Below are positions 3,009 through 22,918 of a DNA stretch of 28,891 nt, piece after piece (position 1 is the first letter of the stretch; each line of letters starts with the position of its first letter). Below the pieces are notes generated by a model that saw only the letters and a list, made by a program, of their open reading frames with translations, was not told where the DNA came from and did no database searches. The stretch is from a virus. The stretch is taken from the IMG/VR virus record IMGVR_UViG_3300048929_000811, positions 1 to 28,891 of that record. One strand, written 5' to 3'. Position numbers and translations under genes: made by a program.

Positions 3009-3449
3009 ATGAATATAGAGGATGTAAAACAACTGACTGACAAAAAACTAAATATAGCTATAGCTAAATTACTTGGGTATAAGGCAGTCAAGGTTGGAGG
3101 GCAACCGAAATACTCTCGAATTTTGTCTCCAGATGATCAATTACTTGGAAAAACTTCCGTGGTTGAGCAGTTAGCATGGGAAAGCGCCATTCCTAAATAT
3201 TCGTCAGAAGTGGTTCATTCGAGAGAAGCCCAAGCAAAGGCTATGAGCAAAGATTTTGAAGCTTATATTTATAACTTAGGCGAGGTATTAAGAGTACACG
3301 AGGAACACTTTGTACAAGTTGATTTAGGTTATACGTCAGGCATACAGCACGTCTATATCGGGGCTGTAGCCCACATGCTTCAAGCTACTCCACGACAAAT
3401 AGCAGAAGCATCTTATATAACATTACAGGAGGTACAACATGAAACCTAA
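3009..3449 (+). CDS. Phage ABA-sandwich domain protein
   Basis: 146 residues with GAGGGAGGGG just before the ATG. The N-terminus (DVKQLTDKKLNIAIAKLLGY) and following short strands match the small alpha-beta-alpha sandwich protein widespread in Bacillus and Paenibacillus phages (BC1872-like). The C-terminal half has a region (VYIGAVAHMLQATPRQIAEA) typical of proteins in which this domain is followed by a helical part. No catalytic motif. Function is unknown in the family. It overlaps the methyltransferase start by 11 bp. Confidence 0.6.
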   Translation: MNIEDVKQLTDKKLNIAIAKLLGYKAVKVGGQPKYSRILSPDDQLLGKTSVVEQLAWESAIPKYSSEVVHSREAQAKAMSKDFEAYIYNLGEVLRVHEEHFVQVDLGYTSGIQHVYIGAVAHMLQATPRQIAEASYITLQEVQHET

Positions 3450-4126
3450 ATTACTAGATTTATTTTGTAAGGCTGGTGGATGCTCTGCTGGATATGCCAA
3501 AGCTGGATTTGAAGTAGTTGGCGTAGACATCGAGCCACAACCTAATTACCCATATCAATTTATACAAGCAGATGCATTAGAGATATTAAAAGACAAGGAC
3601 TTTATAAATCAATTTGCCATGATAACAGCTTCACCGCCATGTCAAAAGCATAGTAAAGCACGCTCTCTCTCTCTCTCTCGCACGCAACGGCGGTAAATAT
3701 GGAGATCATCCCGACCTAATCCCTGAAACTCGAAGATTACTAATTGAATCGGGCAAACCTTACATCATTGAAAACGTTGCTGGTGCGCCGTTAATCAATC
3801 CAATTAAGTTGTTTGGGTCACAGTTTAAGAACCTTTACACGCAACGCGAACGGTGGTTTGAAACCAATTTAAACCTCATTGAACCTGAGATTAATAGAGT
3901 CAAGATGAAAACACCAGCTGCTGGAAACGGAATTGGTGAAGATGGAAGCATATCAATTTGCGGAAGTGGTGGAGTAAGAGGGTTAAACGTAAAACAGATC
4001 GTTTTATATTGGGGATTTGCACTAGGAGGAATCGACTGGATGACTAGGGCAGAGTTAGCCGAAGCCATACCACCAGCTTACACAGAGTTTTTAGGCAAGC
4101 AAGCCAAACAATTAATAAGTGTTTAA
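3439..4126 (+). pseudogene. C5-cytosine DNA methyltransferase, interrupted at a CT repeat (possible phase-variable gene)
   Basis: The first frame starts at ATG 3439 (AGGAGGT ribosome site) and gives LLDLFCKAGGCSAGY (SAM-binding motif I), VVGVDIEPQP (motif II), QADALE, and the catalytic motif IV SPPCQ (Cys at residue 68). It then enters a (CT)8C run at 3663-3679 and stops at TAA 3694-3696. The rest continues in the +1 frame from about 3680: NGGKYGDHPDLIPETRRLL, the ENV motif (PYIIENVAGAP), target-recognition region, and the C-terminal motifs (MTRAELAEAIPPAYTEFLG) to TAA 4124-4126. Adding one CT unit or removing two would fuse both halves into one enzyme of ~229 residues. As written, the active-site half is separated from the SAM/target half, so the protein should be inactive. 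A natural on/off switch, simple decay and assembly error are all possible; the location of the break in a long dinucleotide repeat favours slippage. Confidence 0.85.
3663..3679. repeat. (CT)8C simple-sequence repeat at the methyltransferase frameshift
   Basis: Seventeen alternating C/T bases, flanked by cg and gcacgc, lie exactly where the reading frame of the C5 methyltransferase changes. In frame it encodes Ser-Leu repeats directly after the catalytic PPCQ loop. Dinucleotide tracts of this length are known slipped-strand mispairing sites in phase-variable bacterial methyltransferases. Confidence 0.95.
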
Positions 4127-4160: not shown

Positions 4161-4517
4161 ATGAGCGAACCGGTATTAAAATGCTATTTTGTCCATGATA
4201 CTGACAATGAAAATCAAGAATTAATATTTGCTAGTAAACGATCAGAAGCGATTTTAAATAGCGAAGCTTATCAGTATGAGGGAGATTATATAAAAGTAAG
4301 AGCAACCAGAAAAAAAGAATTTGATAAATATGCACAACAAGGATTTGTACCAAAACAAGCTTTACTTAACGATGGCTGGTGGTTTGAGTGTTACGGATAT
4401 AACAATGACAGACGATGCTGCAAACAGTTAACCATAGATGATAATCCATTAATCGTGGATGAGCATGTTTACTGTAGAGAGAGTTGCTTAAAAAGGCATA
4501 CTCCATTTGAGGGATAA
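4161..4517 (+). CDS. Conserved phage protein with Cys-rich C-terminal half
   Basis: 118 residues, ribosome site AAAGGA at 4146-4151. The N-terminal half is a small alpha/beta domain (CYFVHDTDNENQELIFASKR ... YIKVRATRKKEFD). The C-terminal half begins with DGWWFECYGYN and holds five more cysteines (CCKQ, YCRESCLKRH), a likely treble-clef-like zinc site. Related proteins occur next to methyltransferases in Bacillus-group phages, but I know of no function. It sits between the two DNA methyltransferase genes and is flanked by GGGATAAC linkers on both sides. Confidence 0.65.
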   Translation: MSEPVLKCYFVHDTDNENQELIFASKRSEAILNSEAYQYEGDYIKVRATRKKEFDKYAQQGFVPKQALLNDGWWFECYGYNNDRRCCKQLTIDDNPLIVDEHVYCRESCLKRHTPFEG

Positions 4518-4534: not shown

Positions 4535-5035
4535 ATGCTGCTGATGGAAAGAAAATGGTGTATGCCTAACAAAAACACATTCTCAATCAAGCCGTTCAAA
4601 GAATTATTAGCGGATGAGATTGGTACAGGAATATGGGTAGACCCATTTGCAAACGAGAATAGATTAGCAACTATCACGAACGACTTAAATCCTGAGTTTG
4701 ATACAGATTACCATATGGACGCTTGGGAATTTTTAAAGATGTTTGATGATAACTCTATTGACGGTGTGGTATACGACCCTCCGTATAGCCCTAGACAAGT
4801 ATCTGAATGTTATAAGGGTTTTGGAATTGATGTAACCAAGGAAACTACTCAATCTAGCTTTTGGGCTAAACATAAAAATGAAATAGCTAGAATCCTTGTA
4901 CCAGGAGGAAAGGCAATCTGCTTCGGTTGGAATAGCCAAGGATTAGGGATTAACCGAGGTTTTGAAATGACAAGAGTGTTGATGGTTGCTCATGGGGGGG
5001 GCAAAACACGACACGATATGCACTGTAGAGGTTAA
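4535..5035 (+). CDS. Adenine-type DNA methyltransferase with C-terminal frameshift at G8
   Basis: 166 residues behind AGGAGGGG. It contains the catalytic DPPY motif in VVYDPPYSPRQVSECYKG and the SAM-proximal segment WVDPFANENRLATITNDLNP, so it is a small N6-adenine (or N4-cytosine) methyltransferase of the compact phage kind. The last residues, HGGGKTRHDMHCRG, do not resemble the family, whose members as I recall them end in HGG-x-x-(N/H)DTICTVE-x-K. Reading the G8 run at 4994-5001 as G7 restores exactly this ending: HGGAKHDTICTVEVKG with TAA at 5040-5042. The body of the enzyme is intact either way. Whether the altered tail abolishes activity cannot be told from sequence. Confidence 0.85.
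   Translation: MLLMERKWCMPNKNTFSIKPFKELLADEIGTGIWVDPFANENRLATITNDLNPEFDTDYHMDAWEFLKMFDDNSIDGVVYDPPYSPRQVSECYKGFGIDVTKETTQSSFWAKHKNEIARILVPGGKAICFGWNSQGLGINRGFEMTRVLMVAHGGGKTRHDMHCRG
4994..5001. repeat. G8 homopolymer at the C-terminal frameshift of the adenine methyltransferase
   Basis: Eight consecutive G in an AT-rich gene, at the codon where the reading frame leaves the conserved C-terminus. G7 (or G10) gives the conserved frame. Poly-G tracts are classic slippage sites; they are also classic sequencing-error sites. Confidence 0.9.
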
Positions 5036-21007: not shown

Positions 21008-22918
21008 ATGCCTAAAGCACCGATCATCATTTATGACAAGGATATGAAAAAACAAGCATACCTAGAGAATGCTTTTGCCATTGGTTATGAATTTACAATG
21101 AACGGGTTGTGGTCTGCTGAATTTTACCTGCCAGCAGATGACCCCAAAAATGCCGAATGTTTACCTTTACGATATGTAGAGATTTTTGACAATAACGAAC
21201 GCATTGAATTGTTTCGCATCTTGCCAATGTCAGTTAATCGCACTTCTAATGGTCGTATCGTCCGTTACCGTTGTGAGCATGTGCTTGCCACCTTATTGGA
21301 CGATGTTTTATTCCAGTATCACACCATCGGAAATTTAGGCGTGTATACAAGGGATGTACTGCAATATATCTTGTCCAAACAGTCTGTACAACGTTGGGTT
21401 ATTGATGACGTGGAGTTTTCCAGACAGTTTGAATACAACTGGGAGAATGAAACGTTATTAGGCGCATTATGGAGCGTGTCACGTCCGTTTGTTGAAGAGT
21501 TTTTATGGACTTGGGACACAACAACATTCCCATGGAAACTAAGCTTAAAAACGCCGCCAGATGGCGTACAGGCGTACATCAAATACGGAGTTAACATGAC
21601 AGGCATTACCAAAGAGGTTGACCCAAGTAATCTATTCACACGCTTATATGGATTGGGCGCAGGCGAAGGAGTAAACCAACTTACCATAAAGGATGCAAAC
21701 GGTGGCGTGCCTTATATTCAGGATAATGCTGCTATCGCAAAATACGGATTGATTACACGCATTTTTGCAGACTCACGCTTTCAGTATGCCGACACGCTTT
21801 ACGCACGCTGTCAGACGCTATTAAACCAATCTAAAGAGCCAAGAGTTTCCTATCAAACGACGGCAACGGACATACACAGGCTAACAGGGCAAAAGATACA
21901 TCGATTTGATGTAGGCTCTATTATACGTGTGCAGGACAAGGAAATGGGCGAGGATTTTAGGGCAAGGTTAGTCAAAGTTTCTAAGAGCGATATTTTAGGC
22001 AATCCAGGAGAGGTAAGTTTAGAGATTGCCAATAAATCACAGGACATTTCTGGCACGATTGCAGACTTGGCTAACAGAGCGCGTATTAATGAGGTATACG
22101 CACAAGGAGCAACAAATTTTGATAGTCATAACTTTGCTGATAACGCAGACCCCACACATCCAGCTACTTTAAAGTTTTGGATTCCAGAGGAAACAGCAAG
22201 AATCAATAAGGTTATGCTTTCCTATCAATGTGAAGCCTTTAGGGCTTATTCTAAGGCTATCGAGGGTGGCGGAGCAGTACAAACCACAACAGAAAGTGGC
22301 GGAGGTACGCAAACCACAACAGAAAGTGGCGGAAGCTCAACACCTACAACTAATACAAATCCAACGACTGTTCAATCAGCAACAACATCAAAAAATTGGA
22401 GACAATATGCAATAGATGTCATAGAAGCTGTTGATTTTGCTGGTAGTCATAATCATGGGATTCCAAACGGGACACAACTTGCTAAAGCTGGTGGAGGGTT
22501 TGTTACATTTTCCGAGTCTGGTGGTCATTCTCACTCCTTGACTTCTGACCATACTCATGATGTGACTATACCAAGTCATAATCACATAGTGACAATACCA
22601 AACCATACTCATGGGATACAGTTACCCAATCACACACACAGTATATCTATACCTAGCCATACACACGAAATAGAGTACGGGATTTATGAGGGCCCAACTC
22701 CTACGCAACTTAATATAAAAGTAGATGGAACTACAATACCTGTTACAGACACGCAAGGAGACATTGATATTATCCCTTATTTGAGCAAAGATGGAGCGGG
22801 AAAAATCCAACGTGGAGCATGGCACACAATAGAAATAGCCCCAAATACATTGGGGCGCATTGTTGCGTCTGTGCTTAATCAAATTTTTGTGCAAAGTCGG
22901 GGTGGTGGCGATTATTGA
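21008..22918 (+). CDS. Tail-associated lysin/baseplate hub (Tal) with His-rich tip
   Basis: 636 residues, AGGAGGGTAAC before ATG. Residues 1-~380 match the prophage endopeptidase-tail family (gp27-like hub): KAPIIIYDKDMKKQAYLENA, YRCEHVLATLLDDVLFQYHT, SNLFTRLYGLGAGEGVNQLT and KVSKSDILGNPGEVSLEIAN. After a helical linker come two TTTESGG repeats (residues ~425-445) and a His-rich stretch (GSHNHGIP, HSHSLTSDHTHDVTIPSHNH and three further repeats to ~575), then an end domain (KIQRGAWHTIEIAPNTLGRI). HxH arrays are metal-binding in phage fibre tips. The 7-bp overlap with the opposing gene at 22912 is convergent. Confidence 0.85.
   Translation: MPKAPIIIYDKDMKKQAYLENAFAIGYEFTMNGLWSAEFYLPADDPKNAECLPLRYVEIFDNNERIELFRILPMSVNRTSNGRIVRYRCEHVLATLLDDVLFQYHTIGNLGVYTRDVLQYILSKQSVQRWVIDDVEFSRQFEYNWENETLLGALWSVSRPFVEEFLWTWDTTTFPWKLSLKTPPDGVQAYIKYGVNMTGITKEVDPSNLFTRLYGLGAGEGVNQLTIKDANGGVPYIQDNAAIAKYGLITRIFADSRFQYADTLYARCQTLLNQSKEPRVSYQTTATDIHRLTGQKIHRFDVGSIIRVQDKEMGEDFRARLVKVSKSDILGNPGEVSLEIANKSQDISGTIADLANRARINEVYAQGATNFDSHNFADNADPTHPATLKFWIPEETARINKVMLSYQCEAFRAYSKAIEGGGAVQTTTESGGGTQTTTESGGSSTPTTNTNPTTVQSATTSKNWRQYAIDVIEAVDFAGSHNHGIPNGTQLAKAGGGFVTFSESGGHSHSLTSDHTHDVTIPSHNHIVTIPNHTHGIQLPNHTHSISIPSHTHEIEYGIYEGPTPTQLNIKVDGTTIPVTDTQGDIDIIPYLSKDGAGKIQRGAWHTIEIAPNTLGRIVASVLNQIFVQSRGGGDY

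Follow-up and report, generated by a model that had tools for sequence, protein, structure and literature searches.

Bacterial viruses probably switch DNA marking on and off through the slippage of short repeats, a reading that emerged from a split C5 cytosine methyltransferase gene and from tracts of the same kind in the modification genes of other phages. The short gene lies at positions 3439-4126 of a viral record of 28,891 bases (hereafter the window), and is broken into two reading frames at a (CT)8C dinucleotide tract. For this tract we favour phase variation of phage DNA modification by slipped-strand mispairing, with confidence somewhat better than even because the window's own tract has been seen only once. 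For the wider class of tract-bearing modification genes, our confidence in the same mechanism is higher.

The features of the split gene are given in Table 1. Motif I (DLFCKAGG) and the catalytic PPCQ both fall within the first 75 codons, and the N-terminal open reading frame (ORF) stops 17 nt past the tract. The +1 frame is open from upstream of the tract through 4126 and lacks a separate start codon close to the junction, and the C-terminal part that it encodes is 80-87% identical to intact relatives. Motif I, PPCQ, ENV and QRxR are all present, as in members of PF00145, the C5 fold is predicted from the model of an intact relative (L003), and the gene product would presumably methylate cytosine in DNA. 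An earlier note on this DNA had placed motif I and PPCQ in one frame and ENV with the remainder of the enzyme in the +1 frame, and the ORFs bear this out. It had also put the change of frame exactly at the 17-base CT repeat; an alignment with seven relatives agrees, locating four additional nucleotides entirely inside the tract and requiring no gap elsewhere in the gene.

Table 1 Features of the split C5 methyltransferase gene in the window.
Feature	Position	Strand	Evidence or remark
AGGAGG, Shine-Dalgarno-like, upstream of the methyltransferase start	3427..3432	+	sequence
N-terminal half of the C5 methyltransferase, 85 aa, with motif I and PPCQ	3439..3696	+	Pfam PF00145, E=3.9e-9
Catalytic PPCQ (motif IV)	3634..3645	+	invariant in 30 aligned relatives
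(CT)8C dinucleotide tract, site of the frame change	3663..3679	+	exceeds the length in intact relatives by 4 nt
C-terminal methyltransferase part, +1 frame, 148 aa, with ENV, QRER and IPPAYTEFLGKQ	3680..4126	+	
ENV (motif VI)	3770..3778	+	
QRER	3842..3853		+1 frame of the methyltransferase gene

The 17-nt tract is the sole dinucleotide run of at least 12 nt in the whole record, and no comparable tract arose in 100 dinucleotide-preserving shuffles of it. It codes for Ser-Leu repeats and its length determines the reading frame of the gene in which it lies, as in phase-variable simple sequence repeat (SSR) loci. With the eight CT units recorded, translation stops at 85 aa. Six or nine units restore the frame (227 or 229 aa), so that the earlier arithmetic, by which one more unit or two fewer fuses the halves, was correct. 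Overall, 3, 6 or 9 units give a protein of 225-229 aa, and any other count leads to a stop 83-94 aa from the start, upstream of ENV and the target-recognition part.

Intact homologues were found in L003, L085, L004, L005, L007 and phage Vegas. Intact relatives that are 84-86% identical to the window gene carry 12 nt at the tract position; downstream of an Arg codon common to both, four codons in the intact homologues (SLSV in L003 and L085) correspond to 16 nt in the window. Six CT units would match this length (SLSL for SLSV), and the recorded state is therefore a two-unit expansion. Against L003 and L085 the window gene showed a pN of ~0.08-0.10 and a pS of ~0.8; synonymous change approaches saturation, while few amino acids differ in either the N-terminal or the C-terminal half. 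The C-terminal half is no looser than that of intact pairs. Since both halves are constrained and the C-terminal half shows no excess of change, the break is either recent or reversible. In L020, a close cousin of phage Vegas, a frameshift was observed at the same linker (near 3225), with one base lost from a G5 run. In L080, most of the C5 gene has been lost by internal deletion. Adjoining this deleted gene is a D12 adenine methyltransferase (L080:4974-5738) that contains 22 nt of AG repeat and has two N-termini overlapping in different frames; a search for length variants of its AG tract matched only L080's own contig.

The structure predicted for the intact relative L003 (pLDDT 90) matches M.HaeIII (E=7e-9), and M.HaeIII and DNMT3A are the nearest solved structures to this model, in which the intact relative folds as a C5 enzyme with good confidence. 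The model is least certain at residues 71-90, a stretch that takes in the tract position. Alignment to M.HaeIII sets the tract in a loop after the catalytic Cys. The length of this loop varies in the family alignment, so in-frame Ser-Leu variants, and with them in-frame length variants of the window enzyme, are probably tolerated.

The gene order of the record is that of a siphovirus (terminase, portal, capsid, tape measure), and the relatives of its methyltransferase are Paenibacillus-like. Neither neighbouring ORF (3009-3449 or 4161-4517) is matched in Pfam, the second matching only PHROGs of unknown function, and nothing nuclease-like was found among the ORFs tested for a cognate endonuclease beside the methyltransferase. 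Elsewhere in the window, we observed a second methyltransferase-like gene with a DPPY motif (4535-5035; phrog_11619, E=1e-43) and a 30-base tandem repeat of 2.3 copies in a tail-region gene, encoding TTTESGGG units (22266-22333).

We propose that the virus is a Paenibacillus-type siphovirus and that its C5 cytosine methyltransferase gene, an orphan, is a contingency locus recorded in the OFF state. Slipped-strand mispairing during replication would add or remove CT units, with 3, 6 or 9 units yielding an enzyme of 225-229 aa and other counts truncating it. The phage population would then comprise methylating and non-methylating members, which would differ in their exposure to host restriction. 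Escape from host restriction through such switching is plausible. If this bet-hedging on DNA marking by slippage is true, protected and unprotected genomes would coexist within one clone, with a bearing on how restriction barriers are crossed and how shifts in host range are read. Many split methyltransferase 'pseudogenes' in viral genomes would then be switch states, which would affect their annotation.

Near copies of the window phage were sought among phages, and by the tract flanks in viral contigs, and none was found among the records open to these searches; one of 75 Paenibacillus genomes carried the methyltransferase gene, in intact form. The lack of a second copy of the window phage at another tract length counts against switching here; that the tract switches back, and that the phage benefits from switching, we infer. 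The tract is also short, at 8.5 units where other members of the class mostly have 9-18, and those members mostly carry GA on the coding strand whereas the window carries CT. No other methyltransferase recovered from viral contigs had a CT tract just after PPCQ; the only candidate, L104, was rejected since it is not a methyltransferase. A GA tract after PPCQ was found among viral methyltransferases only in L062, a distant relative of the window gene, where it occupies the same linker in frame. In L172 a C5 gene is split by (GA)10 between PCQ and ENV, as in the window.

The closest intact relatives lack the tract, so it is not conserved within this gene family, and viral contigs were accordingly scanned for the bare 17-mer. 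The scan was blind to function; the ORFs on the tracts were matched to Pfam and PHROGs. A profile built from the window family proved too narrow for general C5 enzymes and was replaced by an iterated profile. (CT)8C occurred in at least 120 viral stretches, whereas a 17-mer of shuffled sequence occurred in 18 across the entire collection. Among the tract ORFs of the first 80 loci, Pfam matches were mainly to DNA-modification families, namely C5 methyltransferase (9), Mom (2), D12 (1) and N6/N4 (1), with four further matches to PAPS-reductase. The next 40 loci added four C5 and three PAPS-reductase matches in 46 tract ORFs. PF00145 was matched by 9 of the 113 tract ORFs in the first 80 loci and 4 of the 46 in the next 40, against 1 of 127 matched control ORFs from the first 80 loci, counted among the best 25 of the 49 families in that control set (Fisher p=0.005, one duplicate dropped). 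When tracts were placed at random, each within its own locus, the mean number of C5-bearing tract loci was 4.2, against 11 observed (the twins L158 and L210, one phage, are both counted); at least 11 were reached in 7 of 20,000 trials. This permutation test errs on the conservative side, since in some loci the gene fills almost the whole length. PHROGs matches at the tracts included DpdA-like queuine tRNA-ribosyltransferase and ParB-methyltransferase proteins. PAPS-reductase-like genes often bear or adjoin a GA/CT tract (L126, L134, L139, L154, L117).

Tract length was found to vary between otherwise identical contigs of this class, which rests on assembled contigs throughout. L158 (contig 3300022661_000184) and L210 (contig 3300024272_000819), from two metagenomes, align over 5.8 kb with 0 mismatches and differ solely in the tract of a C5 methyltransferase, (GA)16 versus (GA)18 (32 versus 36 nt). 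Assigning ON to L210 and OFF to L158 was rejected, as the next conserved segment lies in a third frame, and we claim the length difference alone. Similarly, L251 and L252 show 0 mismatches over 2.7 kb and tracts of 27 versus 33 nt, and L253 and L254 are 99.7% identical (6 substitutions in 4.7 kb) with GA tracts of 18 versus 22 nt. In this last pair a C run (at 57), the GA tract (at 2690) and a G9/G10 run (at 3123) all differ. More diverged relatives include copies in both states: for a Mom-like gene, L111 (19 nt) is in frame, the Mom profile match spanning the tract, and L133 (17 nt) is out of frame; for a PAPS-reductase-like gene, L126 and L139 are in frame and L154 is not; and for a phrog_757 methyltransferase, L166 is in frame and L164 is not. 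Since there are contigs that match everywhere except at the tract, hypermutability of tract length in the class is very likely, and the enrichment together with the in-frame and out-of-frame pairs suggests that, class-wide, the hypermutable tract is likely to be selected as a switch. The earlier proposal that the phage varies its own methylation thus gains from length variation and from in-frame and out-of-frame copies in other phages, and stops short at the window phage itself, of which there is no second copy.

The main rival is a gene left dead by a chance slip: a tract that appeared fortuitously in a linker tolerant of change gained two units and killed an unneeded gene, with no selected switching. 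We consider this clearly less probable than phase variation, yet a serious contender. The close relatives lack the tract, and the break at the same linker in L020 together with the loss of most of the gene in L080 indicates that the gene is dispensable. However, both halves of the window gene are constrained and free of stops, tract-split modification genes recur in unrelated phages above expectation, and other phages show length variation and in-frame partners. A sequencing or assembly error within the repeat of a gene that is really intact is improbable. Short tandem repeats are error-prone in PCR and in some sequencing chemistries, and the window is a single record; nevertheless, 17 nt is far below the usual read length and the same pattern appears in coherent frames in other phages from different metagenomes. 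Least probable of all is that expression bridges the split, through RNA polymerase slippage or a ribosome slipping back two bases, a slip that would re-pair perfectly on a dinucleotide repeat and restore the frame, for a cursory look noticed no stimulating signal at the tract, and the class has widely varying tract lengths, many of them in frame, neither of which a programmed shift would need.

Slipped-strand phase variation, the reading preferred here, has a close bacterial counterpart in M.MmyCI of Mycoplasma mycoides, a phase-variable Mod methyltransferase with 10 or 12 AG repeats whose activity follows repeat length (PMC3498834). Both genes carry a dinucleotide tract of which one length is in frame and another leads to a stop right behind the tract, but M.MmyCI is a bacterial adenine methyltransferase of Type III that is paired with a nuclease, whereas the window gene encodes a predicted orphan phage C5 enzyme with CT on the coding strand. 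The orphan C5 methyltransferases of the Vegasvirus phages (Vegas and others) of Paenibacillus larvae are the same short C5 protein at 70.7% DNA identity; unlike the split window gene they are intact and without the CT tract, all 28 records being alike. In phages, polyG SSR switching of a receptor-binding protein has been described in a Campylobacter phage (Sorensen 2021, doi 10.1016/j.celrep.2021.109214, as cited in PMC11868660). As presented in that citing paper, it shares with the window an SSR in a phage gene, but is a homopolymer in an adsorption gene rather than a dinucleotide in a DNA-modification gene. A search of the open-access literature turned up no report of phage DNA modification being switched by SSRs, and a gut phage methylome paper makes no mention of repeats or phase variation (PMC10477858). 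The earlier remark that such switching is little described in phages therefore holds for DNA modification within the open-access literature, but not for a phage receptor-binding protein, for which SSR switching is published according to PMC11868660. SSR switching itself is known from bacterial methyltransferases and one phage receptor-binding protein.

In the L127 family of C5 genes, a GA tract of 13-34 nt recurs at one site, and intact cousins without the tract were found (L258, L262-L264). Past the GA tract of L245-L257 and L266, the three frames lead to module 1 (AKTITTKAG...), to module 2 (GTCRTIKAQ...) or to an immediate stop, and all three states are present among the loci examined. Tentatively, and with a good deal of doubt, we suggest that dinucleotide contingency tracts are widespread in phage DNA-modification genes and that, in this one C5 family, a GA tract at the entrance to the target-recognition region could form a three-way switch of methylation specificity, as opposed to a plain on/off switch. 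In the same loci (L245-L257, L266), the last part of the enzyme (motifs IX-X) follows a G run in yet another frame.
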